In this document: positions 4,226 to 27,256 of the stretch, one piece after another
Position numbering within the stretch: position 1 is the stretch's first letter
Layout of the letters: each line of letters begins with the position of its first letter
DNA from: Sinomonas atrocyanea
Lineage (GTDB): Bacteria > Actinomycetota > Actinomycetes > Actinomycetales > Micrococcaceae
DNA: 64,000 nucleotides
Assembly: GCF_030812675.1 (NCBI RefSeq)
Contig: NZ_JAUSTE010000001.1
Span: 124,001 to 188,000 of the forward strand
Direction of reading: 5' to 3'
Translations under genes and position numbers: made by a program
Notes under the pieces: generated by a model
Seen by the model: the letters and a program-made list of their open reading frames with translations, nothing else
What the model was told of the DNA's origin: nothing
Database searches by the model: none

Positions 4226-4286
4226 TTGACGGGCCGCGTGTTCCACGGCACACTGGATCGTATACGATGATCGTATACGATCCAGT
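4226..4286 (+). promoter_or_regulatory. hpa-operon promoter with a perfect double GntR-type operator
   Basis: A -35-like TTGACG (4226-4231) and a weak -10 CACACT (4249-4254, 17-nt spacer) lead into a perfect inverted repeat: arm 4252-4268, one central G, arm 4270-4286. Each arm contains ATCGTATACGAT, itself a palindrome and a good match to the GTATAC-centred sites bound by GntR proteins of the FadR/FCD subfamily. Such a regulator is encoded by the second gene of this operon, so autoregulated repression at this site is the natural reading. Confidence 0.8.
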
Positions 4287-4326
4287 TCCCGTTTCCGGGA
4301 GCTGTCGACTCAAGGGAGAGGGACAC

Positions 4327-8281: not shown

Positions 8282-9448
8282 ATGACCCACCGCGACGACA
8301 TGACCCTGACCTCGTCGGGCTTCTACGTCTCCCAGGAGGCCCCGATCTCCTGCGCCAACCCCGTCCCCACCCCGTCGGTGCCCGCGCCGGACATCCTGCG
8401 CTGCGCCTACATGGAACTCGTGGTGACGGACCTGGAGCGCTCGCGCAACTTCTACGTCGACGTCCTCGGACTCACGGTCACCGAGGAGGACGAGAACGCC
8501 GTCTACCTCCGCTCGCTCGAGGAGTTCATCCACCACAACCTCGTGCTGCGCAAGGGCCCGGTGGCCGCCGTGGCCGCCTTCTCCTACCGCGTCCGCACCC
8601 CGGGGGACCTCGACAAGGCGGTCGCCTTCTACACCGAGCTCGGCTGCCGCGTCGAGCGCCGCGCGGAGGGCTTCACCAAGGGCATCGGCGACTCAGTGCG
8701 TGTGGAGGACCCGCTCGGGTTCCCCTACGAGTTCTTCCACGACGTCGAGCACGTCGAGCGCCTCGCGTGGCGCTACGACCTGCACACGCCGGGCTCGCTC
8801 GTCCGCCTCGACCACTTCAACCAGGTCACCCCGGACGTCCCGCGCGCCACGAAGTTCATGCAGGACCTCGGCTTCCGCGTCACGGAGGACATCCAGGACG
8901 AGGACGGCACGGTGTACGCCGCGTGGATGCGCCGCAAGCCGACCGTCCACGACACCGCGATGACCGGCGGCAACGGCCCCCGCATGCACCACGTGGCCTT
9001 CGCGACGCACGAGAAGCACAACATCCTCGCGATCTGCGACAAGCTCGGTGCCCTGCGCATGTCGGACCACATCGAGCGCGGCCCGGGCCGCCACGGCGTC
9101 TCGAACGCGTTCTACCTCTACATCCTCGATCCGGACGGCCACCGCGTGGAGATCTACACGCAGGACTACTACACCGGCGACCCGGACAACCCGGTGGTCA
9201 CGTGGGACGTGCACGACAACCAGCGCCGCGACTGGTGGGGCAACCCGGTCGTGCCGAGCTGGTACACGGAGGCCTCGCTCGTCCTCGACCTCGACGGCAA
9301 CCCGCAGCCGGTCATCGAGCGCACGGACTCCTCCGAGATGGAGGTGACCATCGGCGCCGACGGCTTCTCCTACACCCGGGCCGACGACGAGTCCGGCTCG
9401 TACCACGGCCAGGCCTCGAAGGGCTTCAAGATCGGCAACCAGCTCTAA
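8282..9448 (+). CDS. hpaD: 3,4-dihydroxyphenylacetate (homoprotocatechuate) 2,3-dioxygenase
   Basis: A 388-residue type I extradiol dioxygenase of the vicinal-oxygen-chelate fold, resembling the Brevibacterium/Arthrobacter HPCD/MndD enzymes. The metal ligands are recognisable: His178 in VRLDHFNQ, a His about 60 residues later in PRMHHVAF, and the Glu of HRVEIYTQDYY near residue 290. The second-sphere acid/base His is in KPTVHDTAM. The metal may be Fe(II) or Mn(II), since both occur in this family with the same ligands. AAGGA lies 7 nt before the ATG. It opens the ring of homoprotocatechuate between C2 and C3. The start is about 20 residues longer than I recall for the Brevibacterium enzyme. 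Confidence 0.93.
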   Translation: MTHRDDMTLTSSGFYVSQEAPISCANPVPTPSVPAPDILRCAYMELVVTDLERSRNFYVDVLGLTVTEEDENAVYLRSLEEFIHHNLVLRKGPVAAVAAFSYRVRTPGDLDKAVAFYTELGCRVERRAEGFTKGIGDSVRVEDPLGFPYEFFHDVEHVERLAWRYDLHTPGSLVRLDHFNQVTPDVPRATKFMQDLGFRVTEDIQDEDGTVYAAWMRRKPTVHDTAMTGGNGPRMHHVAFATHEKHNILAICDKLGALRMSDHIERGPGRHGVSNAFYLYILDPDGHRVEIYTQDYYTGDPDNPVVTWDVHDNQRRDWWGNPVVPSWYTEASLVLDLDGNPQPVIERTDSSEMEVTIGADGFSYTRADDESGSYHGQASKGFKIGNQL

Positions 9449-9451
9449 GCC

Positions 9452-10237
9452 ATGCTGAGCGAAGAGACGATTGCGGCAATTGCCGACGAGCTCGTGGAGG
9501 CAGGGCGCACGCGCACGCCGGTGCCCCTCCTCCACACCCGCTACGAGGGCATGGACGTCGAGGACTCGTACGCCGTGCAGAAGCTGTGGGCCAGCCGCCT
9601 CGAGGCGGAGGGGCGGCGGGTGGCCGGCCGCAAGATCGGCCTGACGTCCAAGGCAATGCAGGCGGCCACCGGCATCACCGAGCCGGACTACGGCGTCATC
9701 TTCGACGACCAGGTCCTCGAGAACGGCGCCGTCGTCGAGTGGAAGCGCTACACGCACCCGCGCATCGAGGTCGAGCTCGCGTTCCGCTTGGGCCGCGACC
9801 TCAAGGGGCCGGGGGTGACGCTGTTCGACGTGCTCGACGCGACGGACTACGTGGTCCCCGCCCTCGAGATCCTCGACTCGCGGATCGAGATGGAGGGGCG
9901 CACCATCGTGGACACCATCTCGGACAACGCAGCGCTGGGCGCCATGGTGGTGGGCGGGCGCCCCGTGCGCCCGCACGACGTGGACCTGCGCTGGGTGTCC
10001 TCCCTCCTCTACCGCAACCAGGAGATCGTGGAGACGGGCGTCGCCGCCGGCGTCCTCAACCATCCGGCGACGGGCGTCGCGTGGCTCGCGGACAAGGTCG
10101 CCCAGCACGGCCAGGACCTGCGCGCGGGCGACCTCATCCTCGCGGGCTCGTTCACCCGGCCCATGTGGGTCTACGAAGGCGACACGGTGTACGCGGACTA
10201 CGGGCCCCTGGGGACGGTGACATGCCGTTTCGTCTAG
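9452..10237 (+). CDS. hpaH: 2-oxo-hept-4-ene-1,7-dioate hydratase
   Basis: A 261-residue FAH-fold hydratase close to 4-oxalocrotonate decarboxylase/2-hydroxypentadienoate hydratase. Diagnostic stretches are [12 protein letters not shown], the metal-binding [22 protein letters not shown] and the terminal [19 protein letters not shown]. It adds water to 2-oxohept-4-ene-1,7-dioate before the aldolase step. Only three bases separate it from hpaD, and its end overlaps hpaI by 16 nt, so the genes are tightly coupled. Confidence 0.92.
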
Positions 10238-11998: not shown

Positions 11999-13525
11999 TC
12001 AGTCCTCCTCGTCGCCGAGGTGGTGCGCGCGGCCTTCCTCGCCGTGGCCGATCCTCGCGTACAGCGCGGGGTCCGCGCGGCGGAGCCGGAGGGCCCAGAG
12101 GATGCCGACCAGGCCGGGGACGACCACGATCGCGGGGAGCACCCAGCTCAGGGCGCTGGGCTCGGTGAGGCCGAGCAGCACGTCGAAGTTCGCCACGATG
12201 AGGCAGAACACGGCCGCGAGGGCCACGGCCCCGAGCGTCGGGGCGATCACGGCGGTCCAGACACCGGCGCGGAGGGCGGGGCGCCGCCGGAAGAAGCCGA
12301 TCACGGCCACCGAGACGATCGCCATGAGCAGCACGAGGCCCATCGCGCCGGCGTTGGTGAGCCAGGTGAACATGGTCAGGACCGGGTACAGCGGGCCGAG
12401 CTCGGAGCCGCTGCCCGCCATCGCGAAGGCGATGGTCACGATCACGGCGATGCCGGTCTGCACGATCGAGCCCGCCTTCGGCGCGCCGTGGCGGCTCGTG
12501 GCCTCAAGCCAGCCCGGCAGGACCCGCTCGCGGCCGAGCGAGAAGAAGTAACGCGCCACGGCGTTGTGGAAGCTCACCAGCGCCGCGAAGAGGCTCGTGA
12601 TAAACAGGACCTGCGCGACGTCCGCGGCGATCTGGCCCACGTGGGCGCCGAGGAAGGAGAAGACGAGGTCCGGGCCCTGCTTGCCCGCGGCGTCGAAGAG
12701 CTGGGACGGCCCGGTGCCCACGGCCATGGCCCACGAGGAGACGGCGTAGAAGACGGCGATGATGCCGACCGCGGTGTAGGTGGCGCGCGGGATGGTGCGG
12801 TGGGGCTCCTTGGCTTCCTCGCCGTAGATCGCGGCGGACTCGAAGCCCATGAAGGCCGCGACGCCGAAGGAGAGCACGGCGCCGATGCCGGGCACGAAGA
12901 GGCTCGACGGCGCGAGCGGCGCCGCGGTCACGCCCTCGGGCGCGACGGTGAACGAGGCGATGTCGTACACGATCACAACGAGGAACTCGAGGGCCACGAG
13001 GGCGCCGAGCACCTTCGCCGAGAGGTCCACCCGGTTGACGCCGAGCGCCGCGACGACCGCGATGCACAGGAGGATGGGGACCCACCACGGCACGTCCACG
13101 CCGAACCGCTCCGCGATGAACGAGGAGACGGTGAAGCCGAAGATGCCGTAGATGCCCACCTGCATGAGGTTGTAGGACATGAGGGCCGTGAGGGAGGCGC
13201 CCACCCCCGCGGGCCGGGAGATGCCCTGCGAGACGTAGGCGTAGAACGCGCCCGCGTTGGTCACGTGGCGGCTCATGGCCGCGTAGCCGACCGCGAAGAC
13301 CGTGAGGATGGCGCCGAGGATGAGGAAGGACAGCGGGACGCCCAGCAGGCCGGTCACGGCGAACGTCGTCGTCACGCCGCCGGCCAGGACGGTCAGCGGC
13401 GCGGACGCCGCGATGATCATGAGGGTCACGGAGGCGACTCCGAGGCGGCGCGGACGCGGTGAGGCTGCGGCCTGCGCCACGGTGGCCTCCTTGGTCCGAC
13501 GCGGGGAGCTCGTCGGGATGCTCAT
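11999..13525 (-). CDS. APC-superfamily permease, probable amine or amino acid importer linked to the amine oxidase
   Basis: A 508-residue integral membrane protein with about 12 hydrophobic helices. The N-terminal helix region (VTLMIIAASAPLTVLAGG), the GYAAMSRHVTNAGAFYAYVSQG segment and FMGFESAAIYGEEAKEPHRTIPRA are hallmarks of the amino acid-polyamine-organocation family. GGAGG lies 6-7 nt before the ATG. The amine oxidase gene lies directly upstream on the same strand, separated by a hairpin, so the permease most likely imports that enzyme's amine substrate. Substrate assignment is by context only. Confidence 0.85.
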   Translation of the reverse strand: MSIPTSSPRRTKEATVAQAAASPRPRRLGVASVTLMIIAASAPLTVLAGGVTTTFAVTGLLGVPLSFLILGAILTVFAVGYAAMSRHVTNAGAFYAYVSQGISRPAGVGASLTALMSYNLMQVGIYGIFGFTVSSFIAERFGVDVPWWVPILLCIAVVAALGVNRVDLSAKVLGALVALEFLVVIVYDIASFTVAPEGVTAAPLAPSSLFVPGIGAVLSFGVAAFMGFESAAIYGEEAKEPHRTIPRATYTAVGIIAVFYAVSSWAMAVGTGPSQLFDAAGKQGPDLVFSFLGAHVGQIAADVAQVLFITSLFAALVSFHNAVARYFFSLGRERVLPGWLEATSRHGAPKAGSIVQTGIAVIVTIAFAMAGSGSELGPLYPVLTMFTWLTNAGAMGLVLLMAIVSVAVIGFFRRRPALRAGVWTAVIAPTLGAVALAAVFCLIVANFDVLLGLTEPSALSWVLPAIVVVPGLVGILWALRLRRADPALYARIGHGEEGRAHHLGDEED

Positions 13526-13665: not shown

Positions 13666-15678
13666 CTACCGGTGGCAGTGGCCGCCGGCCGCCGGGGCGG
13701 GGACGTCGAGGACGGGGCTGCGGTCGAAGAAGCCCTCGGGGCGGATCTTGAAGCCCACGTGGTCCACCGGCATGATGGGCCAGTCCTCGGGGCGGGGGAA
13801 GTGGGTCAGGCCGAACGTGTGCCACACGACGAGGTCCGTCCCATCGAGGTCGCGGTCCTGGGCCTGGTACGCCGGCAGGCCGGCGCCCCCGGCGTGCTGG
13901 TTGACGAAGTCGCCGGTCGGGTAGCGCTCCGCCTCGTCGTAGCGGGTGACCCACAGAGCCTTCGTCGCGAAGGCGGCCCGGGCCGCGACCGACGACGCCG
14001 GGTCGGCCAGGAGGGTCGGGTGGCCCTGCGGGTGGATCTTGTAGCCCACGGGCTCGCCGAGGCGGTTGAGCGAGGTGGGGTTGGAGACGACCCAGGAGCG
14101 GCCGGCCGCCATGTCGTTCTCGCGCGCCGCCTCGGACTCGCGGGCCAGGAGGGTGCGCCTGCGGGTGAAGGCGTTGCCGCGCTCGTTGCCCGGGCCCAGC
14201 GGCACGCGCACGGCGTCCTCCTCCTCGACGCGGTTCGGGCCGCCGTCGAGGGCGAAGTCGAGGCGGGCGCTGAAGAGGTGCTGGTGGAACGGCGCGCCCA
14301 GGCCGGGGGCCATCTCGGACGAGTACGGGTAGTCCGCCGAGGGCTGGGCGGACGTGAACACGACGCCGGTGGCCTTGGCCTCGAACTCGATCGTGCCGTC
14401 CAGGTAGAGGTACCAGTAGAAGCCGTAGTCGTAGTTGCCGATCGTGGTGAAGAAGCTGATGACGAGGCGGCGGTTGCGGCGCACGTAGCTGACCCCGCTC
14501 CACAGGTCCGAGTGCTTGGCCAGGATCGAGGCGTCCTCCTCGTGCATGCAGATCCCGTTCGAGATGGTGCGCGGGTTGCCGAATGCGTCGGCCACCACGG
14601 GGCTGAGGTAGGTGATCTCGCCCAGGCAGTCGCAGCCGAGTTCGAGGGAGTTGGCGAACTGGCCCACGAGGTACTCGCCGGTGTCGAAGTAGTTCTGCCA
14701 CGAGCGCACCGGGGACGGGTCGCCGTACGGGACCACCATCTCCGCGATCGAGGCACGGTCCAGGATGCGGCGGCGGCGCGTCGGCTTCCTGTCGCCGGGG
14801 TTGCCGGCCGCGGCGTCGTCGAAGGCGATGTTGTGCAGCACGAGGCCCTCGCGCACGTCGAAGCCGACGTCGAGGCTCCAGCGCTCCCACTCGACGTGGT
14901 TGCCGCCCGTGACCGTGAAGCTCGGCCCCTCGGGCTGGGTGATCTCGATCGGCTTCTGGGTGGTCCGCACCGGCCCGGTCAGCTCGGGGTCGGTGAAGTT
15001 GCCGTGCTCGGCCGGGACGGGGACCGCGCCGAAGTCGAGGACCTGGTCGACGCTGCGGCTGACGACGTCGACATAGGCCACGAGGCCGTCGACGGGGTGG
15101 GCCCACGGGCTGTCGGAGCCGTGCTCCTGGACGAACGCCAGGCCGCGCAGGATCCTGCGGCCCTTCTCCTCTGGATACTCGAAGACGCCCGCGGAGAGCG
15201 GGGCGACGCGGACCGTTGCGGGGTCGAGCCCGCGCGCGGCGAGGGCCTCGAGCCAGCGACCGTCACGACAAAGGATCTCCTCGACCACCTCGAACTCTTC
15301 CTCGAGCACGGGAAGCTCGCCGGTCGCGGAGGTGTCGAGCTCGGTCTCGGAATCGATCTCGCCCCGCGTCACCGAGAGGGTGACATCGCGCGGGCGGGAC
15401 CCGCCGACGTCGTGCAGGAAGATGCGGAACCGGCGGTCGGCGGGCGCGTCCGGTCCGGGCGCGCCGCTCCCCCGCGGCGGGTCGACGAGGCCGAGGTAGG
15501 CGATGCGGGTGGTCTCCCGCCAGAGGCCCGTGCTCTCGAGGATGCCGCGGGCAGCCCCGATCTCGGCGGCCGTGGCCAGCGCGTACTGCCCGGCCGCGCC
15601 GTCCGCCGGGGAGGCCTGCTCGTGGCAGGCGTGCTGCTCGGGGGCCGGGTGCTCGTGGGCCGTGGTGTCGATGCTCAT
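13666..15678 (-). CDS. Copper amine oxidase (primary amine oxidase, tyramine/phenethylamine/histamine type)
   Basis: A 670-residue TPQ-dependent copper amine oxidase, converting a primary amine plus O2 to aldehyde, ammonia and H2O2. The self-processing tyrosine is Tyr416 in [10 protein letters not shown]; copper ligands are the HQH pair near residues 467-469 ([13 protein letters not shown]) and the His of [15 protein letters not shown] near residue 624. Two small N-terminal domains precede the catalytic beta-sandwich, as in Arthrobacter globiformis enzymes, and the length is typical. No signal peptide is seen, so it is likely cytoplasmic. The His-rich start ([15 protein letters not shown]) and the end (GGHCHR) could bind metal. 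GGAGGATCC precedes the ATG. It diverges from TetR and AraC/FeaR-like genes, the regulator type used for tyramine oxidase in E. coli. Confidence 0.94.
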
Positions 15679-16405: not shown

Positions 16406-17397
16406 GCGTGGCACTCTCCCCCGTGGCGCCCTCCCCCGCGGCGGCAGACCGGACGGCCGGGCTCGAGGTGACCGTCGCCCACGACTTCGACTCCTGGCGG
16501 CGTGCCGTCTCCGCCTCGTTCGTCCCCCTGGCCGTCGAGGCGGACCGGCACTCCGCCTTCACGGGCAGCATGCGCGGCCGCCACCTCGCGGCCCAGCAGA
16601 CGAGCATGATCGAGATCGCTGCGAGCAGCCACGCCGTCATGCGCACACCCGAGCTCATCGCCGCGGCGGACCGGAAGTACTTCAAGCTCGGCGTCCAGCT
16701 CGCCGGCACGGGCCTGCTCCTGCAGGACGGCCGGGAGGCCGTGCTCACGCCCGGCAGTCTCGCGATCTACTCGACGGACCGCCCGTACACCCTCGCGTTC
16801 GACGGCGACTTCCGCTCGCTCGTGCTGATGTTCCCGCACGCCGCGCTGGACCTGCCCGCCGACGCCATGGCACAGGTGACGGCATCCGCCATCAGCGGCT
16901 CGGAGGGGCTCGGCGCCCTCGTCGCGCCGTTCCTCATCCGGCTCTCGGAGAACCTGGGCGCGGTGGCCGGCCCGAACGGCTCACGCCTCGTGGGCAACGC
17001 ACTGGACCTCGTCACGACCCTGTTCAACGGGGAGCTCGACGCCCGGTCGGCGGCCTCCCGCGACCCGCACCAGATGCTCCTCGCCCGGATCCACGACTAC
17101 ATCGAGGCGCACCTGCCCGATCCGGACCTCTCCCCCGGATCCATCGCGGCCGCGCACTTCATCTCGACCCGCCACCTCCACGACCTCTTCCGCGAGCTCG
17201 GCACGACCGTGTCGGCGTCGATCCGCGAGCGTCGCCTCGAGCGGTGCCGCCGAGACCTGCGGGACCCGGTGCTCGCCGACCGGCCCGTGACCGCGATCGC
17301 CTCCCGCTGGGGCCTGACGGACTCGGCCCACTTCTCCCGCATCTTCCGCGCCGCCTACGGGCTGCCGCCGACCGCCTACCGCGCGGGAGAGGGCTAG
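16402..17397 (+). CDS. AraC-family activator, FeaR-like
   Basis: A 331-residue regulator. Residues about 20-200 form the AraC_binding_2 (NasR/FeaR-type) ligand domain with IEIAASSHAVMRTPELIAA and LAIYSTDRPYTLAF. The last 100 residues are the double helix-turn-helix with the terminal signature DRPVTAIASRWGLTDSAHFSRIFRAAYGLPPTAYR. It overlaps the TetR gene by 4 nt (ATGA), so a repressor and an activator are made from one message. In enteric bacteria FeaR responds to aromatic aldehydes and switches on tynA (amine oxidase) and feaB; the same role next to an amine oxidase is likely here. Confidence 0.87.
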   Translation: MSVALSPVAPSPAAADRTAGLEVTVAHDFDSWRRAVSASFVPLAVEADRHSAFTGSMRGRHLAAQQTSMIEIAASSHAVMRTPELIAAADRKYFKLGVQLAGTGLLLQDGREAVLTPGSLAIYSTDRPYTLAFDGDFRSLVLMFPHAALDLPADAMAQVTASAISGSEGLGALVAPFLIRLSENLGAVAGPNGSRLVGNALDLVTTLFNGELDARSAASRDPHQMLLARIHDYIEAHLPDPDLSPGSIAAAHFISTRHLHDLFRELGTTVSASIRERRLERCRRDLRDPVLADRPVTAIASRWGLTDSAHFSRIFRAAYGLPPTAYRAGEG

Positions 17398-17679: not shown

Positions 17680-18723
17680 TCAACGGGCGACGGTGCGGAA
17701 CCCGCAGTTGCCGCTCGAGGAGTCGGCAGTGTTGGAGCTGCGCGCCGCCACACGGTAGCGGTTGCAGTAGGAGTCATGGCACAGGTACGAGCCCCCGCGC
17801 ATCACACGGGCCGTGCCGCTCGCCGGGCCCTTCGGGGACGACTCCGGGGACACATGGTAGTAGCGGGCCGAAAACCAGTCGGCGCACCATTCCCAGACAT
17901 TGCCGCTCGTGTCCCATAACCCGTACCCGTTCGGAGAGTAGGTGCGCACGGGCGAGGTCCCGATCCAGCCGTCGTCGGCCGTATTGACCGTCGGGAAGAC
18001 GCCCTGCCAGATATTGCAGCGATGTTCTCCGCCCGGCAGGAGCTCGTCGCCCCACGGGTAGCGGGCGCCCGTAAGGCCGCCGCGCGCGGCATACTCCCAC
18101 TCCGCCTCGGTGGGCAGGCGGCGGCCGGCCCACCGGGCATACACGAGCGCATCCCGATGCGAGACGTGCACCACGGGATGGTCGGCGACGTCGCGCCAGG
18201 ATGACCGTGTCCCGCCCGGGTGGGCCCAGTCCGCCCCCCGTACCGTAAACCACCATGGCGTCCCGGCCACGGGGCCGAGGACTGCGGGTGGCGGCGCCTC
18301 CACAAGCAGGTGGAACACGGCCGAGACGCCGAAGTGCTCGGCGTCCGTCCGGAATCCGGTGGCCTCGACAAAGGCGGCGAACTGGGCGTTCGTCACCGGG
18401 GCGGAGTCGATGCGGAATCCCTCGAGGGCCACGCGGTGGACGGGCTGCTCACCGTCGGCGGGAGATCCCTCGTCGAACGCGTCGCCCATGTGGAACGTAC
18501 CGCCGGGGATCCACACGTCGTCGTGCCCGACCGCCGAGGGGCGGGGCCGCCGGGTCACAACGAGGTCCGGCGAGGCGGCCGCGACCACCGAGGCGGTGCC
18601 GGGTTCACCCGGTGCGGAGGCATCGGCCGAAAGGGCTGCAGACGACGGCGCACAGCACCGCGGTATCTGTTCCTCAGGTGACTCCCCTACGGGGCTGCAG
18701 GAAGCCGGATAGTGCCCGGTCAT
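17680..18723 (-). CDS. Formylglycine-generating enzyme dedicated to the adjacent sulfatase
   Basis: A 347-residue FGE/SUMF1-family protein that oxidises the sulfatase active-site cysteine to formylglycine. The catalytic pair is present as Cys315 and Cys320 in SYLCHDSYCNRYR (i, i+5, as in known FGEs), inside the family core from WIPGGTFHMGD (about 70) to the terminal GNCGFRTVAR. Markers such as LPTEAEWEYAARGG and YGLWDTSGNVWEWCADWF are intact. The first 65 residues are a low-complexity, Cys/Ser/Ala-rich extension without an obvious signal peptide, so the enzyme should work in the cytoplasm. GGAAG precedes the ATG. It is the last gene of the sulfatase operon, 43 nt after the sulfatase stop. Confidence 0.93.
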   Translation of the reverse strand: MTGHYPASCSPVGESPEEQIPRCCAPSSAALSADASAPGEPGTASVVAAASPDLVVTRRPRPSAVGHDDVWIPGGTFHMGDAFDEGSPADGEQPVHRVALEGFRIDSAPVTNAQFAAFVEATGFRTDAEHFGVSAVFHLLVEAPPPAVLGPVAGTPWWFTVRGADWAHPGGTRSSWRDVADHPVVHVSHRDALVYARWAGRRLPTEAEWEYAARGGLTGARYPWGDELLPGGEHRCNIWQGVFPTVNTADDGWIGTSPVRTYSPNGYGLWDTSGNVWEWCADWFSARYYHVSPESSPKGPASGTARVMRGGSYLCHDSYCNRYRVAARSSNTADSSSGNCGFRTVAR

Positions 18724-18766
18724 CGGCTGCTTCCTTTCCTTTCGCGGGATTGCCTATGCTCTGTGG

Positions 18767-20371
18767 CTACGCGGCGGCGGTGGGGGCTGTACCCTCATCG
18801 GCCAGGCTCGCCATCTGGGTGACGAGGGCCTCTGTGAGCCGGCGCTCGAGGGCAGCGTACTCAGGTTGGCCTGCCACATTGTGCAACTCCCACGGGTCCA
18901 GGGCGTGGTCGTACAGCTCGACCTCGCCCGCGCCAAAGTAGCGCGTGAGGCGCCCCTCAGCGGTCACGACTGTGCGCATGCGCACTGGCCCCGGCAGCCC
19001 GGGCAGCCCGAACGGCTGATCCTCCTCGATCAGGAGAGCCGGCCGGTGCACGTCCTCGCCCCCGTGCAGGATCGACGCGAACGAGATTCCCTGGATCCCC
19101 CGGAACTGTCCCGCTCCGGTGAGCTCCATGAGGGTTGGCACGAGGTCGGGGCTCGCCACGAGGGAGCGGCTTCGGCCTGCCGCGGACCGCGGACCAGCAC
19201 TCGCACCGGGAAGCGCGACGACGAGCGGCACGTTGGTCACGGCCCTGTAGTGGCAGAAGTGCTTGAGCATCAGACCGTGGTCACCGAACAGGTCGCCGTG
19301 GTCTGCGGTGAACACGACGATCGTGTCCTCGGAGAGCCCCTGCGCGTCGAGCTCCGCGAGGATCCGCCCGATCTGCTCGTCCATGAGCGTGATGAGTCCG
19401 TACTGCGCGGCCGCGGCATGCCTGTACTGTTCGGCCGTGGCCGCCCATGTCATTGTCGGATCCGTCCCAGGCTCGCCGCGGCGCGACACCATGTGGCGGA
19501 TGTGTCGAGGCGAACGCGAGTGATCCTGGTCGAACCCGAGGGGAAGCGGGATGCTGTCCGGATCGTACAGCGTGTCGTACCCGGCGGGGGGCGAGAACGG
19601 ATGGTGTGGGTCGGGAAACGAGACGAACAGGAAGAACGGCGCGTCGTGGCCCGCCGCGTCTTTGAGATGCTCGACCGCTTTCTCCCCGATGTATGCGCTC
19701 GGGTGGAGGTCCGCCGGGATGGCAGTGCGGTAGACCTGATCCCACCCCGGGTAGACCGCTTCAGATCCGTCGGGGCCGCCGACCGCATCGGGGTCGAGCC
19801 CTCGCTCCCGTGCCCAGTGCAGGTAGTGGCCGCCGGGGTGGTCCCCGTGGCCGACGATGAGGTCGACGTGCGAGTACCCGTAGTAGTCCGTCGGGAGCGG
19901 CACGAACGCCTGCTCGTGCCGAGCGCGGTCCTCCCAGTGGTCCCATCCGGCCGGCCCGCTGCGCGGGCGAGCGTCCTCGGCAGTCGTGTTCAGAAGGAGC
20001 GGCGCCGTCGCACGGATCTCGGCCTGTTGCTCGGGCTCGAATTCCCAGCCCATGTTCTGGTGGTGCAGCTTGCCGACGGCCAAGGTGCGGTACCCGGTAT
20101 CGGCCAGCGAGCGCATGAGCGTCCGCGACGCAGGATCCAGCGGGATGCCGTTGCATCGCGTGCCGTGGGCTGAGGGCCACCGTCCCGTCACGAGTGAAGC
20201 CCGATTGGGCATGCACGTTGGGTTGGCCACGGTCGCGTTCTCGAACACCATTCCCCGATCAGCAAGGGCATCGAGATTCTGCGTCTTCACCACGGTATTG
20301 CCCCCGAAGCCCAGATGGTCCGCACGCAGCTGGTCGGCGACGATGACCAAGACGTTCGGGCGCCGCGTCAT
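18767..20371 (-). CDS. Formylglycine-dependent sulfatase, cytoplasmic
   Basis: A 534-residue type I sulfatase of the alkaline-phosphatase fold. The maturation motif CMPNR (Cys53, Pro55, Arg57) lies in NPTCMPNRASLVTGR, matching C-x-P-x-R with Asn where Ser/Ala is more common. Metal-site elements follow: VIVADQLRADHLG at the start and FTADHGDLFGDHGLMLKHFCHYR in the middle. There is no signal peptide, so sulfate esters must be imported first, which fits the ABC importer upstream. Its start overlaps the ATPase stop as ATGA. The substrate is unknown; length and motifs resemble both arylsulfatase and choline-sulfatase-like enzymes. Confidence 0.92.
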   Translation of the reverse strand: MTRRPNVLVIVADQLRADHLGFGGNTVVKTQNLDALADRGMVFENATVANPTCMPNRASLVTGRWPSAHGTRCNGIPLDPASRTLMRSLADTGYRTLAVGKLHHQNMGWEFEPEQQAEIRATAPLLLNTTAEDARPRSGPAGWDHWEDRARHEQAFVPLPTDYYGYSHVDLIVGHGDHPGGHYLHWARERGLDPDAVGGPDGSEAVYPGWDQVYRTAIPADLHPSAYIGEKAVEHLKDAAGHDAPFFLFVSFPDPHHPFSPPAGYDTLYDPDSIPLPLGFDQDHSRSPRHIRHMVSRRGEPGTDPTMTWAATAEQYRHAAAAQYGLITLMDEQIGRILAELDAQGLSEDTIVVFTADHGDLFGDHGLMLKHFCHYRAVTNVPLVVALPGASAGPRSAAGRSRSLVASPDLVPTLMELTGAGQFRGIQGISFASILHGGEDVHRPALLIEEDQPFGLPGLPGPVRMRTVVTAEGRLTRYFGAGEVELYDHALDPWELHNVAGQPEYAALERRLTEALVTQMASLADEGTAPTAAA

Positions 20372-21234
20372 GCCGGCCTCTTGATGAGGGAGAGGACCTC
20401 GGTGCGCTGCGCCGCGAATTGGGGCAGGGAGCGGGTGCCGATCTGGTCGCGCGGCGCGGGGAGGTCGACGTCGGCGATCTTCAGCACACGTGCCGGCTTC
20501 GACCCGAGCACCACCACGCGGTCAGCGAGATAGACAGCCTCGTCAATGTCATGGGTGACCACGAGGATCGTCATGCCAAAGTCCTCACGGATCTTCAGGC
20601 AGAGGTCCTCTAGGTCGAACCGGGTCTGGGCGTCGACCGAAGCGAAGGGCTCGTCCATGATGAGGACCTCCGGCCTGTAGGCGAGCGCGCGGGCGATCGC
20701 GACCCGCTGCTGCATGCCGCCGGAGAGCTGCCACGGGTACTGGTGCTCGGCGTGGGAAAGGCCCACCGCCTCGAGCGCCTCGTCGCACCGGGCCTTGAGT
20801 TCAGCACGGGGCAGCCGCAGGTGACGCAGCGGCAGGATCATGTTCTTGCGGACGGTGAGCCATGGCATGAGCGAGCGGCTGTAGTCCTGGAACACGAGTG
20901 CCATCTCAGGCGGCGGACCGCTGATGACGCGGCCATCGATCCGCATCTCGCCCGATGTGGCCGGATGGAGGCCGGCCAGACATTTGAGGAGCGTCGTCTT
21001 GCCGACGCCGGAAGGGCCGACGATGCACACCACCTCGCCGGCGTCGACGCTGAACGTGAGGTCCTCGATGATCGTCTTGGCCGACGAGCCCGTCCCGTAG
21101 GCCTTGCGGAGATGCCTGACCTCGAGGCGCGCCTGCCTCGTGCTCTCTCGCTCTGCGGACGTCGTCACGGCGTTGGTTTCCATGGCATGGCCTGTCTGGG
21201 AGGTGGTCAGGGGGCTGAAGGTGGTGGGAGTCAT
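20368..21234 (-). CDS. ABC importer ATPase (SsuB/TauB-like)
   Basis: A 288-residue nucleotide-binding subunit with Walker A GPSGVGKTT near residue 84, Q-loop LVFQDYSRSLMPW, signature LSGGMQQRVAIARAL and Walker B VLIMDEPFASVD followed by the switch histidine in VTHDIDEAV. It belongs to the nitrate/sulfonate/taurine importer group. The ATG at 21234 overlaps the preceding permease stop (ATGA), and its own stop overlaps the sulfatase ATG. The roughly 45 residues before the ATPase core are polar and poorly conserved, so a later start at 21183 is possible. Confidence 0.92.
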   Translation of the reverse strand: MTPTTFSPLTTSQTGHAMETNAVTTSAERESTRQARLEVRHLRKAYGTGSSAKTIIEDLTFSVDAGEVVCIVGPSGVGKTTLLKCLAGLHPATSGEMRIDGRVISGPPPEMALVFQDYSRSLMPWLTVRKNMILPLRHLRLPRAELKARCDEALEAVGLSHAEHQYPWQLSGGMQQRVAIARALAYRPEVLIMDEPFASVDAQTRFDLEDLCLKIREDFGMTILVVTHDIDEAVYLADRVVVLGSKPARVLKIADVDLPAPRDQIGTRSLPQFAAQRTEVLSLIKRPA

Positions 21235-22004
21235 GATGTACGAGCCAATCTGCGGGAGCCGATGTACCAGGCCAGGACCTTCCGTCGGACCAGGTCGAAG
21301 ATGAGGTTTGCTGCGAACCCGATCACGCCGAGTAGGAGGATGCCGGACCACATGTCCGGGATCATGAAACTCTGCTGGGCGAGGAGCGTCATGGCGCCGA
21401 TCCCCTGGGACGGGCCGAGCATCTCCGAGGCGATCATCACGACGAACGCCGTCTGCAGGCTCACCTGGAGGCCCGAGAAGATCTGCGGTCCTGCCGCCGG
21501 AAGGAGCACCGAGAAGACGCGTTCCCCCGGACGGAGACGGTAGACGCGGGTGACGTCGATGAGACCGCGGTCCACAGCCCGCAGTCCGTCGACGGTCGCG
21601 ATGAACGTGGGGAAGAACGCCGCGAGCGCGATGCTCGTGATCCGCATCTCAGGGCCGAAGCCCATGAGGGAGATGAAGATTGGCACGAGCGCGACCGGCG
21701 GGATGCCCCGCAGGAAATGGATGACTGGGTCAATCGCCCAGCGGATGGGCGAGGCGAGCGCCGTCACAAACCCGACGAGGACGGCGGCGACGCCCGCGAG
21801 GATGTAGCCGACGGCGAGATTGCGGAGGCTCACGAGAACGTCCGAGCCGAAGTGGTCGAAGAGCCACAGCGCGCGGAAGCGATCAAGGATGTCTGCGAGC
21901 GGAGGGAAGAATGTGTCGGTCGAACCCGCCGAGGCGATCCACCATGCCGCGAATAGAGCGGCCGGTGTCCCCGCGCCCAGGATCCACAGGATGATGCGTT
22001 TCAT
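21231..22004 (-). CDS. ABC importer permease 2 (SsuC/TauC-like)
   Basis: A 257-residue permease with about six membrane helices. The coupling EAA-type loop is visible as VYRLRPGERVFSVLLPAAGPQIFSGLQVSLQTAFVVMI. The start shares one base with the previous gene's stop (TGATG), so translation should be coupled. With the neighbouring permease it would form a heterodimeric channel, whereas SsuC/TauC systems normally use one permease gene twice. Confidence 0.9.
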   Translation of the reverse strand: MKRIILWILGAGTPAALFAAWWIASAGSTDTFFPPLADILDRFRALWLFDHFGSDVLVSLRNLAVGYILAGVAAVLVGFVTALASPIRWAIDPVIHFLRGIPPVALVPIFISLMGFGPEMRITSIALAAFFPTFIATVDGLRAVDRGLIDVTRVYRLRPGERVFSVLLPAAGPQIFSGLQVSLQTAFVVMIASEMLGPSQGIGAMTLLAQQSFMIPDMWSGILLLGVIGFAANLIFDLVRRKVLAWYIGSRRLARTS

Positions 22005-22777
22005 CAGTGCACCGCCTCTCGGTAGGACTCATGCCAATGGAGCAGCCGACGTTCAGCGGCCCGCGTCGCCGCCTGGAACAGCAGCCCTAGGACGCCGAGG
22101 ATCACCACCAGCGCGTACATGGTGGCGTAGTCCCCTCCTGCCTGAGCGAGGTACAGGCTCTGTCCGAGCCCGGGGCCGCCGCCGAGCAGCCCGGCCACCA
22201 CCGTGATGATGAGGGAAGCCGGGGCGGTGACCCGGACTGCGGTCCCGATGTACGGAAGGGCGCTCGGCAGCACGATTCGGGAGAGGATCTCCGCAGGCGG
22301 CATGCCGTAGGAACGCGCGGTGTCCCGCGCGACGGGGTCGGTGCTGTGGACGCCGTCAACCGTCTGCATGGTGATCGGGAGCAGGCAGCCGAGGAACACG
22401 AGGAACCACGACATTTCTCCGGTGGGCCCGAGGACCAGCACCACGAGTGGCAGGATCACGATGGGCGGGACGGGCTTGAGGAACTCGAGGACGACCCGGG
22501 TCGCGTAGCGCACCGGTTCGAAGCTTCCCACGAGGATGCCGACGGTCACCCCGCACACCCCGGCCGCGGCCAGGCCGAGGAGTGCGATGCCGATCGTAGC
22601 GCCGGCCGCAGACCAGAAGTCGGGACTGCCGACGAGCGATCCGAGCTCACCGATCACCCGGCCGAGCTGCGGAAGCGAGCCCCCCGCCGCTCGGGAGAGT
22701 GCAGCGAGCTGCCAGATCAGCAGCGCTGACGCGATGCCGGCGGCGCCGACCGCTGTGGGCTTGAGGGACGTTCTCAC
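22004..22777 (-). CDS. ABC importer permease 1 (SsuC/TauC-like)
   Basis: A 257-residue inner-membrane subunit with an N-terminal hydrophobic helix and five more, and the EAA loop in ARSYGMPPAEILSRIVLPSALPYIGTAVRV. It lies 6 nt after the solute-binding protein gene. Equal length and parallel motif layout with permease 2 suggest the two arose by duplication. Confidence 0.9.
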   Translation of the reverse strand: MRTSLKPTAVGAAGIASALLIWQLAALSRAAGGSLPQLGRVIGELGSLVGSPDFWSAAGATIGIALLGLAAAGVCGVTVGILVGSFEPVRYATRVVLEFLKPVPPIVILPLVVLVLGPTGEMSWFLVFLGCLLPITMQTVDGVHSTDPVARDTARSYGMPPAEILSRIVLPSALPYIGTAVRVTAPASLIITVVAGLLGGGPGLGQSLYLAQAGGDYATMYALVVILGVLGLLFQAATRAAERRLLHWHESYREAVH

Positions 22778-22783
22778 GGGCGG

Positions 22784-23779
22784 TCAGCTTCCCAGGATGA
22801 GGTCAGCGGGGAGCTTGACGGGCTCCTTGAGGTAGCCGAGACTCGCCATCGCGTCATCAACGCGCTGGATATCGTCGATGGTGACCTTGTCGGGCCAGTA
22901 GTTCACCGCGCCGGCCTTGATGACGTCGACCGGGTTGTTGGTGATCTGGGCGCTGAGCTGCTGGGCCTCATCGATGTGAGCATTTGCGTAGGCGTTGGCC
23001 TTGTAGATCGCAGTTCGGAATCCCTCGATGGCTTTTTTCTCCTTGGCCAGCGCGCTCTTGCCAGTGACCCAGATGCCCACCGCGCCCGCTTTGAAGAAGG
23101 CCACTCCGGGTGAGGCCAGGAGGCGGTCGCCCTCCGAGATGGCTTTGGATACGAATGGCGCCACGAGCGAGGCCGCGTCGACTCGTCCGGAGTTGAGGGA
23201 CTGGAGGGCCGAGGAGGGATCGAGGACCATCCAGTTGACCCTGGATGGGTCCCCGCCGTCGTCCTTGACGAGCTTGCTCACTGTGACCTCGAGCTGCGCC
23301 TTGCGTGCCGGCACCGACACCGATTTGCCCTCGAGGTCCTTGGGACGCTGAATGGGCGAGTCCTTCGCGACGAGGAGGCCCGTGTCGTCGACCTTGGTCA
23401 TGTCCTTGCTCGCCATCGCCTGGTCGGAGTATCCGTCGGCAGCCGCCACGACGGTGAGGGGGACGTTGTTTCCGAGCGCATTCAGAAGGGGAATCGAAGG
23501 GGTATAGGTCAGGTCGAGTTGGCCGCTCTGCGCGGCGGCGATGCCCGCTGGCGGATTCGCAACGACTGATGTCTTGACGTCGAGGCCCTGCTCCTTGAAG
23601 AAGCCCTTGTCGACAGCGAGCTTGATGGCCGCATCGCTCCCGATGCCGATCGTGCCGACTTTGAGAGTTGTGATGCCATCGTTGCCGCCGGAGGCCGTGC
23701 TCGATGATGCAGCGCCGCCGCAGGCGGACAGCGTCAGGGCGAGGATTGCGGCCAGGGCCGCGGGGATGCTACGTCGCAT
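22784..23779 (-). CDS. ABC importer solute-binding lipoprotein (SsuA/NMT1-like)
   Basis: A 331-residue periplasmic-binding-fold lipoprotein. The signal peptide ends in the lipobox LSAC (cysteine near residue 20), followed by a Gly/Ser/Ala linker and TTLKVGTIGIGSDAAIKLAVDKGFFKEQGLDV, the standard opening of SsuA/TauA/ThiY-type proteins. GAGGAGAG lies before the ATG at 23779; the longer frame start has no ribosome site. It should be anchored outside the membrane and deliver the substrate to the two permeases. The ligand is unknown but is presumably what the sulfatase and amidohydrolase process. Confidence 0.92.
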   Translation of the reverse strand: MRRSIPAALAAILALTLSACGGAASSSTASGGNDGITTLKVGTIGIGSDAAIKLAVDKGFFKEQGLDVKTSVVANPPAGIAAAQSGQLDLTYTPSIPLLNALGNNVPLTVVAAADGYSDQAMASKDMTKVDDTGLLVAKDSPIQRPKDLEGKSVSVPARKAQLEVTVSKLVKDDGGDPSRVNWMVLDPSSALQSLNSGRVDAASLVAPFVSKAISEGDRLLASPGVAFFKAGAVGIWVTGKSALAKEKKAIEGFRTAIYKANAYANAHIDEAQQLSAQITNNPVDVIKAGAVNYWPDKVTIDDIQRVDDAMASLGYLKEPVKLPADLILGS

Positions 23780-23862
23780 GGTTCTCTCCTCGAGAGGTTG
23801 AAGGGTGGCGTGGAAACGGGTGTCAGGCGAACATGAAGGGCGGCAGGCGAGCACTGTAGGTG

Positions 23863-25587
23863 TCAATCCAGCAGGGCCTCTGCGTGGACGGGGATGCCCG
23901 CCGCGAGGGTGAGGACCACCTCCATGGCGAGGAGATCCTCAATGTTCGCGTCATCGGGCCATGGAGCGGAGAGAACGCACACATCCGCTGCCATGCCCGG
24001 AGAGAGCACGCCCTTGACGTGCTCCATGTGGTCCTGCCATGAGGCTTGCGCCGTCATGGCGGCAAGGGCCTCGGTTCCATGGATGCTCTCGGGATCACCG
24101 GGCGTTCCGGGCGAGGTTCGCGTTCCGCGCCGGACGGCCGCGACGATTGTCTCGCGCCAGTCAGTGCTGGCCACGGGCGCGTCCGAGGCCAGCGTGAAGC
24201 GAACTCCTGTCTGGGAGGCCGTGCGGAGGGGCTGGTGTCGGGCGAACCGTTTGTCGCCGAGGATACGGCGCATCGCGTCGCCGGCGCCATGGCGGATGAG
24301 CGGATTGGTGCTGTAGCCGATCCCGTGCCGCGCCATGCCGTCGAGGGTCTCCTGGCCGCTGAAAGCGCCGTGGATGATGTAGTGGCGATTGACCCGTGCA
24401 TCCGTCCGCGCGATGAGGGCTGCGACAGCGGCCTCCGTGGCCGCATCTCCCGTCGCGTGGATGCCGGCCTGCAGCCCTGCCCCATCGATCGCAGCCAAGA
24501 TCTGGCCCAGCTCCTCGAGTCGGTCCGCATCGGTGGCACCAGCGATGACGAGGCTGCCGTGGGTGCAGTGGTCGCCGTAGGGCTCGTTCATCCAGGCCGT
24601 GCCGCTGCGCGGGATGCCGTCCGCGAAGACCTTGACGCCTGCGATTCGGAGCCGCTCGGGGTCGATCCCGCGGTCGGTGTACGCGTGGCCCAGCCCGCTC
24701 GCGAGGCCGGCCATGATGGCCGTGCTGTCCGCACCCCCCGTGCCGGCGAACAGCATCAGCACCGTCGCGCGCAGGGTGAGCTCACCCGATTGTGCGAGGT
24801 CGCCGAGGAGATGGATCGCCTCGGTCGAGCCGGACCCGTCGAGGAGCCCTGCGCAGGCGGGTCCGAGGCCCGGCTCGGTGAAGGAGGTGATTCCCTGGGC
24901 GTGCATCCGGCGCTGCATCGCGAGCATCGCGTCCCTGAGCGCTGTGCGCGGGACGGGAGGGAGTGCGCGGTTGAGGAGCTCCATTGCGGCGTCCTGGAAC
25001 AGGCCATTCAGCTCGCCGAGCCCGTCGCGACCGATGACGCCGCCCGCCGGGTCGTGGGCCGCCGCCGTGAGTCCCGCCCTGCGCAGCGCCTCCCGGTTGG
25101 CCACGAGCTGGTGGCCGGTCTGGTCGAAGGCGACGATCGGCGTGTCGGAGCGGACGTCGAGGATCTGGCCGGCCGCGTCGCCAATGAGCACGTCGTCCCA
25201 GCCTCGGGCGCGAATCCACCCGTCGGCTCCCGGCTCCGCGCGGCGTAGGAGGTCCACAATGCCGTCCCAGCTGGGTGCCACTGCCGCGGAGATGTCGAGG
25301 TAGCCGAAGGTCGACATGGCGGCGCCGGTGAAGTGCAGGTGGGAGTCGTTGATCCCCGGCAGCACCGCCCCGCCCTTCGCGTCCACCACCGTGGTGCGAG
25401 GGCCGATGACGGCGGCGACATCCGCGGTGCCGACGGCGAGGATGCGGCCTTCACGGACCGCGAGCGCATCCGCGACGGGTCCGTCCGCGCTGCTCCCCCG
25501 GCCCGCGGGATCCATAGGCAGGACTTGGGCGTTGACGATCGCCATGTCTGCGAGGGGCGTCGTGTCGGTATATCGCGCCACTGTCAT
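23863..25587 (-). CDS. Amidohydrolase family 3 protein (YtcJ/NfdA-like)
   Basis: A 574-residue metal-dependent hydrolase. The N-terminal HxH is in GINDSHLHF, later ligands are in AGIHATGDAATEA and HYIIHGAF, and the final metal-site aspartate is in FTLASDAPVAST. Relatives cleave amide or related C-N bonds in N-substituted formamides, exoenzyme-like substrates and purine analogues. The ATG at 25587 has GAGGAG almost directly against it; the longer start at 25632 has no clear ribosome site and would add 15 residues. It is the first gene of the operon that ends with sulfatase and FGE, 83 nt ahead of the binding-protein gene. Its exact reaction is unknown. Confidence 0.85.
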   Translation of the reverse strand: MTVARYTDTTPLADMAIVNAQVLPMDPAGRGSSADGPVADALAVREGRILAVGTADVAAVIGPRTTVVDAKGGAVLPGINDSHLHFTGAAMSTFGYLDISAAVAPSWDGIVDLLRRAEPGADGWIRARGWDDVLIGDAAGQILDVRSDTPIVAFDQTGHQLVANREALRRAGLTAAAHDPAGGVIGRDGLGELNGLFQDAAMELLNRALPPVPRTALRDAMLAMQRRMHAQGITSFTEPGLGPACAGLLDGSGSTEAIHLLGDLAQSGELTLRATVLMLFAGTGGADSTAIMAGLASGLGHAYTDRGIDPERLRIAGVKVFADGIPRSGTAWMNEPYGDHCTHGSLVIAGATDADRLEELGQILAAIDGAGLQAGIHATGDAATEAAVAALIARTDARVNRHYIIHGAFSGQETLDGMARHGIGYSTNPLIRHGAGDAMRRILGDKRFARHQPLRTASQTGVRFTLASDAPVASTDWRETIVAAVRRGTRTSPGTPGDPESIHGTEALAAMTAQASWQDHMEHVKGVLSPGMAADVCVLSAPWPDDANIEDLLAMEVVLTLAAGIPVHAEALLD

Positions 25588-25650
25588 CTCCTCGTCGTCT
25601 AGCGGGTACGAATGTGATCCGGACAACATCATGCACCATGACTGGATCGT

Positions 25651-25669
25651 TTGACTAGGTCAAGTGACC
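25651..25669. promoter_or_regulatory. Overlapping palindromes in the amidohydrolase/TetR divergent region
   Basis: TTGACTAGGTCAA (25651-25663) is a perfect palindrome with 5-bp arms, and GGTCAAGTGACC (25658-25669) is a second perfect palindrome that overlaps it by 6 bp. Each also offers a TTGAC -35-like box, one per strand. This is the probable operator of the TetR gene at 25763. A -10-like TAGGAT (25730-25735) lies 27 nt before that gene's ATG. Confidence 0.65.
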
Positions 25670-25762
25670 AAGTTCAGTTGTAGGCTTGTCCTGAGTCCGT
25701 CGCGCCACGGCGGCAAGTCGGCCCGCGCCTAGGATGGACGCTGATGACAGGGGGAGGGACCA

Positions 25763-26410
25763 ATGCCCAGGATTCCCGCCGAGGAGCGGAGGATGCAGTT
25801 CGTCGAGGCTGCCGCGCGGGTGATCGCCGCGGAGGGCCTGCCTGCTGCGACGACGAGGCGCATTGCGGCCGAGGCCGATGCGCCGCTGGCCGCGCTCCAC
25901 TACTGCTTCCGGAATAAGGACGCGCTCCTCGAAGAGGTCTACAACTTCCTGAGCCGTGACTACGCGAAGAGCCTGACCCCCATCGAGGACCTCGGTGCCG
26001 GCCTCCCCCGCGTGATCCGGCAGCATGCCCAACGGATCTGGGACCGCATGCTCGAGCGCCCCCACGAACAGGTGACCACTTTCGAGCTCCTTCTCCGCCG
26101 CTTCCGCGAACCTCCCGAATCAGAGCCGGTGGCGCGGGCCCAGAACCGCTCGATGTACGAGGGATGGGTCACCTCGACCGCGGAGCTGTTTGCATCGGCG
26201 TGCAGAGCCTCGGGACAGGACGTGCCGCTCCACCTCGACCTCGTCGCGCGGCTGTTCATCTCCGGCATCGACGGCATCAGCATGCAGCACATCGCCGATC
26301 CCGACACGGAGCGATCGCAAGCGCTGATTGCACTCCTCGCGGATTCGCTCGTGGAACTCCTCGCACGGTCGGACGCTGCCGCTTCGGACTCTGCCGCCAG
26401 CGGGACCTGA
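25763..26410 (+). CDS. TetR-family regulator of the sulfatase/amidohydrolase operon
   Basis: A 215-residue TetR protein: the N-terminal helix-turn-helix covers about 10-55 (AARVIAAEGLPAATTRRIAAEADAPLAALHYCFRNKDALLEEV), then a helical ligand domain. GGGGGAGGGACC precedes the ATG. It is divergent from the operon, with overlapping palindromes in between, so local control is the simplest reading. Its 3' end meets the convergent hydrolase gene with only 4 nt between. Confidence 0.87.
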   Translation: MPRIPAEERRMQFVEAAARVIAAEGLPAATTRRIAAEADAPLAALHYCFRNKDALLEEVYNFLSRDYAKSLTPIEDLGAGLPRVIRQHAQRIWDRMLERPHEQVTTFELLLRRFREPPESEPVARAQNRSMYEGWVTSTAELFASACRASGQDVPLHLDLVARLFISGIDGISMQHIADPDTERSQALIALLADSLVELLARSDAAASDSAASGT

Positions 26411-27203: not shown

Positions 27204-27256
27204 CGGCACACCCTACCGCCGCACGGCGCGGGGGCGGCTCCGATGTGGCGCACCCC

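Follow-up and report, generated by a model that had tools for sequence, protein, structure and literature searches.

A conserved import-and-desulfation operon in Sinomonas atrocyanea, tentatively assigned to sulfated, N-acylated aromatic amines

Import-and-desulfate systems are known, and desulfation of the cytosolic type by a formylglycine (FGly) sulfatase under a BetI regulator has been described for choline-O-sulfate (available text of PMC12442346 and PMC5870055). Here, we describe an operon of seven minus-strand genes in a 64,000-nucleotide stretch of Sinomonas atrocyanea DNA (GCF_030812675.1, contig NZ_JAUSTE010000001.1, positions 124,001 to 188,000; termed the window), which belongs to a genome of 4.12 Mb in 32 contigs. 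From 25587 down to 17680, the genes encode an amidohydrolase, a binding lipoprotein, permease 1, permease 2, an ATPase, a sulfatase, and a formylglycine-generating enzyme (FGE). It is highly probable that import, desulfation, and hydrolysis make up one pathway. With a probability of roughly 0.45, we further propose from the sequence that this is a TetR-controlled catabolic operon for an O-sulfated, N-acylated aromatic amine. The gene combination is what is new: like the initial annotation of this DNA, which knew of no described pathway with this gene set, we found no published description of it in literature judged by title and the start of the abstract.

The choline-O-sulfate catabolism of alphaproteobacteria (betC/betI) relies on a class I FGly sulfatase whose catalytic set matches ours (PMC5870055, available text). 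In the Ruegeria pomeroyi choline-O-sulfate system, two palindromes share one flank (PMC12442346, available text), an arrangement similar to the two overlapping sites of the Sinomonas operon. The operon differs from these systems by its amidohydrolase and its own FGE, and its sulfatase scores 176 bits with the choline-sulfatase equivalog model against a cut-off of 433. Pfam profiles found neither a choline nor a betaine-aldehyde dehydrogenase gene among the seven genes. BetI, which we take to be a TetR-family protein, would be of the same family as the regulator of the operon. The acesulfame pathway of Shinella (FGly sulfatase, ANSA amidase, and TauE/SafE) likewise has two hydrolases, with the sulfatase followed by amide cleavage (PMC11500405, available text). 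That set is plasmid-borne, its partner enzyme is of the amidase-signature type, and the main text of PMC11500405, in the part available, gives it no ABC (ATP-binding cassette) transporter and places FGEs elsewhere. With choline-O-sulfate and acesulfame as precedents, import followed by desulfation is no novelty on its own.

The SsuABC and TauABC systems share the binding-protein fold and the ATPase and permease families with the operon, whereas the operon has two permeases and no monooxygenase. Pfam found no SsuD/TauD oxygenase or other monooxygenase among the seven genes, and the binding protein stays below the family cut-offs for both SsuA_fam (88 versus 163.5 bits) and TauA (43 versus 304 bits). 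The initial annotation had already set the two permease genes apart from SsuC/TauC systems, and both have now been assigned to BPD_transp_1. AtsRBC-AtsA of Pseudomonas putida S-313 is said to resemble the operon in combining ABC import of a sulfate ester with an intracellular sulfatase, and reportedly has one permease, no amidohydrolase, and sulfur-starvation control. Aromatic amine catabolism through tynA/feaR/feaB and the enteric monoamine regulon may be linked to the locus through its neighbors: a copper amine oxidase and a FeaR-like gene adjoin, and MoaF, presumably a member of the enteric monoamine regulon, adjoins in relatives. We know of no sulfatase-importer-amidohydrolase cassette in either.

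All seven genes were assigned by Pfam profiles above their cut-offs (Table 1). Permeases 1 and 2 overlap by 1 nt (TGATG at 22004), permease 2 and the ATPase by 4 nt (ATGA at 21234), and the ATPase and the sulfatase by 4 nt (ATGA at 20371), the three overlaps linking four genes just as originally annotated. The remaining gaps are 83 nt (amidohydrolase to binding protein), 6 nt (binding protein to permease 1), and 43 nt (sulfatase to FGE). The amidohydrolase starts at ATG 25587 or GTG 25581; for the binding protein, the start is ATG 23779, preceded by GAGGAGAG. Overlooked at first were a divergent TetR-family gene and its predicted operator, as well as amine-oxidase, FeaR-like, and homoprotocatechuate genes on the downstream side of the operon.

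A pattern-based scan of an 84,980-genome collection with the sulfatase alignment yielded 119 relatives, of which the best 80 were kept. The same six core genes stand together in 41 of these 80 loci, so the grouping goes beyond chance; five further core loci (L037, L038, L043, L049, and L054) are interrupted by contig ends. A gene-order comparison in other actinobacteria, as the initial annotation had suggested, gave several layouts: amidohydrolase first, amidohydrolase last (Nocardioides and Pimelobacter), an amidohydrolase-sulfatase pair leading with the transporter after it, and the same pair with a divergent transporter (aquatic metagenome-assembled genomes [MAGs]). As the core genes keep together despite their changing order, they are probably functionally tied. 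Sulfatase identity across the cassettes runs from 47 to 90%, over a range that starts with Sinomonas and Arthrobacter and reaches Nocardioides and aquatic actinobacterial MAGs, a conservation that makes the xenobiotic pathway once suggested for this locus seem unlikely. One aquatic-type cassette (L054) is filed under a Bifidobacterium breve MAG, an assignment that is probably wrong. In L063, L064, and L065 (Prescottella, Dietzia, and Tomitella), a sulfatase of 44 to 45% identity has an AMP-forming ligase and an ABC importer of the oligopeptide type nearby (Pfam-checked for L063, and by the same gene clusters for the other two), possibly another import-and-desulfate variant.

Of 15 Sinomonas genomes, 4 have the amidohydrolase (E 1e-60), and the same 4 have a close sulfatase (81 to 100% identity; Fisher p 0.0007). 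FGE is found in six of the 15, including the four with the cassette, and Sinomonas G407 has two sulfatases only, 30% identical to that of the operon. Of the 396 genomes searched from the order, 4 have the sulfatase (E 1e-80), and these 4 are among the 6 that have the amidohydrolase (E 1e-60), which makes the cassette uncommon. A strict pairing of the two enzymes fails outside the genus, with amidohydrolase homologues of 40 to 43% identity in 2 of the 396 order genomes. Three of four such copies have no other core gene adjoining in stretches of 5 to 19 kb, and a Rhodococcus plasmid carries a 41% homologue amid other genes. A broad distribution in the phylum was also rejected: 4 of 396 genomes matched at E 1e-100, the window genome included, and in the other three the remaining five core genes were absent from the stretches read, one of which was a 4.9-kb contig. 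A virus-borne cassette was rejected as well, with no relative confirmed in viral contigs. Plasmid sulfatase relatives, in 16 records, are 29 to 38% identical, and the two best regions carry other transporters, which led us to reject a plasmid-borne cassette.

The operon sulfatase and FGE are the only PF00884 and PF03781 genes detected in the window genome. With both in the operon, the FGE appears to serve one sulfatase. Its best PDB match is an FGE (6muj, E 2.6e-129), and it has both Cys315 and Cys320, which we take to be the copper-binding pair of SUMF1-type FGEs. In the C-x-P-x-R maturation motif, C, P, and R are present in 80 of 80 sulfatase relatives (CMPNR in the window). Elsewhere, the flanks fetched for the 41 cassette loci contain an FGE relative in 10 cases, and 28 of 33 cassette genomes have an FGE-family match, at least two of these being partial. 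The five without a match (G426, G427, G429, G430, and G432, with loci L048, L050, L053, L055, and L057) are MAGs, mostly with lake or reservoir sample names, and their CMPNR sulfatase is intact. These are either incomplete genomes or cases of an alternative maturation route. Radical-SAM maturation was tried for them and rejected, with no match above the curated cut-off in the 10 genomes searched. In Sinomonas G397, the FGE downstream of the sulfatase (L016, 2716 to 3726) is broken up across reading frames; past the TetR gene lies a second FGE, which is open.

The initial annotation held that the sulfatase and FGE lack signal peptides. By hydropathy alone (maxima of 17-residue Kyte-Doolittle windows over the first 70 residues, with no signal-peptide program), neither has a strongly hydrophobic N-terminal stretch, with maxima of 0.94 and 1.04 compared to 2.0 for the binding protein. 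This is consistent with one import-then-cytosolic-desulfation operon equipped with its own FGE, a reading that the gene set supports. Residues D13, Q14, C53, R57, N74, K101, H103, H256 or H257, D357, H358, and K370 of the sulfatase are identical in 26 of 26 sampled orthologues, drawn from the window, L016, and 24 loci out of the 41 with the cassette; we assume that the Arg counts among the 11 catalytic positions of choline sulfatase. All 11 positions match the S. meliloti choline sulfatase by motif and spacing, without superposition (PMC5870055, available text).

For an AlphaFold-type model of the sulfatase (mean predicted local distance difference test score [pLDDT], 89.0), Foldseek ranks 1 to 3 are phosphonate monoester hydrolases (query template-modelling score, 0.74 to 0.76), with sulfatases close behind, and phosphonate monoester hydrolases are reportedly, going by a paper title, formylglycine enzymes as well. 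On that view, the "sulfatase" would act as a phosphonate monoester hydrolase or a phosphodiesterase, in an operon for phosphorus or phosphonate use. The fold alone is undecided between the two, and the GK-x-H pair (K101 and H103), which we take to be what differs in phosphonate monoester hydrolases, favors a sulfatase. Its replacement was found in none of the 80 relatives, all of which keep K101 and H103. The R. leguminosarum hydrolase shares 9 of the 11 active-site positions (PMC5870055, available text), compared to all 11 here; the profile alignment to the Burkholderia phosphonate enzyme stops before K101. As the importer also resembles sulfonate-binding ones, we consider a phosphorus or phosphonate operon very unlikely.

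The amidohydrolase is predicted to act as the second step and is probably C-N-cleaving. Its YtcJ-type metal site (HxH, Lys, His, His, and Asp, roles that we assume for these residues) is complete in the window. The putative ligands H98, H100, K334, H392, H421, and D484, numbered from ATG 25632, are identical in all 26 orthologues of an alignment sampled in the same way as that of the sulfatase, with L017 left out. Its best PDB relatives are uncharacterized hydrolases. The formamide deformylase NfdA reportedly originates from Arthrobacter and has N-benzylformamide as its substrate. Amidohydro_3 includes NfdA as well as N-acyl-taurine/bile-salt hydrolases (preprint PMC13081902, available text). 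In S. gamaensis, the amidohydrolase gene (L018, 8775 to 10453) is broken into two frames, by sequencing error or decay. The Nocardioides/Pimelobacter amidohydrolases (L046, 11609 to 13237; L047, 11664 to 13229) cluster with non-cassette homologues and not with the other 24 cassette ones, a grouping that rests on three outside rows and perhaps indicates a separate recruitment.

The binding protein has the lipobox LSAC, and the nearest folds to its AlphaFold model (pLDDT 86.6) are TauA and SsuA (Foldseek ranks 1 to 7, 16 to 22% identity); its alignment left out L022 and L016.

A TetR homologue is present in 28 of the 41 cassette loci, and a 19-bp motif is common to the intergenic regions between the TetR gene and the amidohydrolase. 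In the window, a second operator-like site with one mismatch (25639 to 25657) overlaps the first. A whole-genome search with the pattern TRGTCANNTGAYYNAGTCA gave a single exact match for every one of the 28 TetR-type cassette genomes covered. The pattern was absent from 6 cassette-less Sinomonas genomes (6 of 11 known), and its reversed form matched nowhere in these 34 genomes. The pattern was derived from cassette loci, meaning that its presence there is by construction and its absence elsewhere is not. The motif occurs in 27 of the 41 cassette loci, all with TetR (L079 is the sole TetR locus without it), and in 0 of the 34 other sulfatase loci. One operator per genome points to private regulation of the cassette, in which the TetR protein would bind the predicted operator and respond to an inducer.

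Such regulation bears on the proposal, made in the initial annotation, that the locus scavenges sulfur. In that case, assorted sulfate esters would be imported when sulfate is short, and the amidohydrolase would broaden the range or be a bystander. The SsuA/TauA-like importer fits this, as does the share of sulfate esters in organic soil sulfur, 20 to 60% (PMC4267179, available text). However, the TetR-type operator is found at the cassette only, the amidohydrolase goes together with the close sulfatase within the genus, and a TauE/SafE-family gene after the sulfatase in 4 of the 80 loci suggests surplus sulfur there. With the amine-related neighbors described below, these points leave scavenging less supported than first thought, and we regard it as unlikely. 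A TauE/SafE exporter follows the sulfatase immediately in L048 (10157 to 10870, +), and likewise in L049, L050, and L053, so that this arrangement is common to the Shinella acesulfame set and some aquatic relatives of the cassette. A luciferase-like monooxygenase follows the transporter genes in L048 (2359 to 3294, −), L050, and L053. Both Pfam assignments were checked on L048 and extended to the rest by gene cluster.

The neighboring genes may point toward amines. FeaR activates the aromatic amine oxidase pathway of E. coli, and Arthrobacter grows by means of such oxidases (PMC4640556, available text). We counted marker genes beside the 41 cassettes and, as a control, in 60 stretches of 20 kb each, placed at even spacing in four cassette genomes (G397, G408, G410, and G411) and kept clear of the cassettes. 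FeaR-like genes lie beside 18 cassettes (0 control stretches), the permease beside 17 (2), MoaF beside 16 (0), and copper amine oxidase beside 4 (3). At least one of the four is found beside 20 cassettes and two or more beside 18, compared to 4 and 1 of the control stretches. The regulator, permease, and MoaF are thus enriched near the cassette. Aldehyde dehydrogenase occurs beside seven cassettes and HpaD/HpaH beside two. An earlier control, with a marker at 0 of 34 non-cassette sulfatase loci, is weak since those loci are mostly proteobacterial; the five loci interrupted by contig ends were counted neither with the 41 nor with the 34. Because the markers were queried with Micrococcaceae sequences at E 1e-20, distant homologues may have gone undetected. 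In 26 whole genomes, MoaF was present in 11 of the 20 that have the cassette, and in 8 of these 11 it lies at most 16 kb from the operator; 8 of 16 MoaF genes are operator-near, compared to about 0.1 expected under random placement. No useful literature on MoaF was found.

On this basis, the SsuA/TauA-like ABC importer would take up a small sulfated organic anion. The cytosolic sulfatase, matured by the FGE of the same operon, would release sulfate, and the YtcJ-type amidohydrolase would then cleave the amide (C-N) bond. N-acetyl-tyramine sulfate or N-acetyl-dopamine sulfate would be examples from the substrate class that we consider most likely. The freed amine would pass to the neighboring copper amine oxidase, on to aldehyde dehydrogenase, and into homoprotocatechuate ring cleavage. 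It is the simplest route in which every part finds a use; an arylethylamine carrying an O-sulfate and an N-acyl group would require exactly these two hydrolases before the amine oxidase could act. An aromatic amine as the product is a tentative assignment, somewhat short of even odds, and the N-acyl detail of the substrate is doubtful.

Several observations weigh against the amine pathway. Copper amine oxidase, the enzyme that it requires, is hardly enriched (4/41 versus 3/60), the FeaR match of 138 bits falls under the curated cut-off of 199, and the one MoaF copy of the window genome is unlinked to the cassette. The four markers are absent from 21 of the 41 cassette flanks fetched, some of them cut by contig ends. 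Of the 20 marker-positive loci, 13 represent one Paenarthrobacter-type layout, which lowers the number of independent cases. Only seven lie outside it (Sinomonas L021 and L041, Arthrobacter AQ5-06 L028, Specibacter L085, Arthrobacter B6 L022, Micrococcales 31B L045, and A. mobilis L035, in which the sole marker is a 36% identical FeaR-like gene). Both the markers and the MoaF test were picked after the neighbors had been seen, which makes the p-values rough. In addition, by its modelled fold the sulfatase is no closer to sulfatases than to phosphonate monoester hydrolases, and with the Nocardioides/Pimelobacter amidohydrolases apparently outside the main clade, the second step may not be uniform. 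Finally, none of the four markers is found in 13 of 13 TetR-less cassettes or in 8 of the 28 TetR-type ones. Because of these, we propose the amine pathway for the Micrococcaceae form; other cassettes may differ.

The same absences, and the weak enrichment of the oxidase by itself, fit another sulfated nitrogen compound (sulfamate or acesulfame-like, a sulfated amidated bile acid, an alkaloid, or an osmolyte-like ester), to which the amine genes would be unrelated. In Shinella, an FGly sulfatase and an amidase break down acesulfame (PMC11500405, available text), and some Amidohydro_3 enzymes are bile-salt hydrolases (PMC13081902, available text). The acesulfame-type pair is not matched here, however, as the partner is of Amidohydro_3 and not of the amidase-signature type, and the nearest Shinella plasmid sulfatases in the collection, which may or may not be the acesulfame gene, are 31.6% identical. 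Given that the FeaR-like gene, permease, and MoaF recur across several layouts, an unrelated nitrogen compound seems rather improbable.

Around the operon, an SbcC-MFS pair flanks the Paenarthrobacter cassettes, and in the window the same pair lies about 4 kb further away. Beyond the TetR gene are an alpha/beta hydrolase, a sugar-type MFS transporter, and an IclR regulator (26415 to 27209 and 27867 to 30278); MFS and IclR homologues flank the Paenarthrobacter cassettes too. The name HpaH in Table 1 is tentative and was given by position.

Table 1. Features of the operon and its surroundings, in window coordinates
Feature	Coordinates	Strand	Basis
TetR-family regulator, BetI-type C-terminal domain	25763..26410	+	TetR_N 44.5 bits, TetR_C_6 30.6 bits
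Predicted operator TGGTCACTTGACCTAGTCA	25652..25670	-	Conserved motif between TetR gene and operon
YtcJ-type metal-dependent amidohydrolase	23863..25587	-	Amidohydro_3 210 bits
SsuA/TauA-like substrate-binding lipoprotein	22784..23779	-	NMT1 79.6 bits
ABC permease 1	22004..22777	-	BPD_transp_1 80.9 bits
ABC permease 2	21231..22004	-	BPD_transp_1 79.3 bits
ABC ATPase, ATG at 21234	20368..21234	-	ABC_tran 118.6 bits
Predicted cytosolic formylglycine sulfatase, motif C53-M-P-N-R57	18767..20371	-	Sulfatase (PF00884) 141 bits
Formylglycine-generating enzyme, Cys315/Cys320 pair	17680..18723	-	FGE-sulfatase (PF03781) 275 bits
FeaR-like AraC-family regulator	16453..17397	+	NCBIfam best match FeaR 138 bits; extent by homology
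Copper amine oxidase	13672..15675	-	NCBIfam primary-amine oxidase 827 bits (cut-off 651); Pfam Cu_amine_oxid; extent by homology, 5' end not fixed
Amino-acid/amine permease, APC family	12035..13489	-	AA_permease_2 88.6 bits
HpaH-like gene, FAA hydrolase fold	9452..10237	+	PF01557 41 bits
HpaD, 3,4-dihydroxyphenylacetate 2,3-dioxygenase	8282..9448	+	TIGR02295 438.7 bits (cut-off 321.4)
Aldehyde dehydrogenase	6746..8131	+	Pfam; probable homoprotocatechuate role
FAA hydrolase/RraA fusion	4267..5910	+	Pfam; probable homoprotocatechuate role

Animals and insects inactivate amines of this kind and excrete them as sulfated, N-acylated conjugates. The operon could belong to an undescribed, widely conserved actinobacterial route that reverses sulfation and N-acylation of catecholamine- and tyramine-type conjugates inside the cell before amine oxidation, although we hold this broader proposal to be speculative and more doubtful than not. 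Tyramine reportedly lifts arylsulfatase repression. Two papers on enteric bacteria from 1978 and 1981, going by their titles, couple tyramine oxidase with arylsulfatase. If the amine pathway is correct, it would offer a possible explanation for this long-noted link. It would also provide a compact pairing of sulfatase and FGE, the latter apparently dedicated to one sulfatase, and the TetR sensor should answer to the sulfated or the deconjugated amine. Taken together, Arthrobacter-like soil bacteria, and possibly aquatic actinobacteria, would then have a conserved salvage route for sulfur, nitrogen, and carbon with a defined and testable substrate class.

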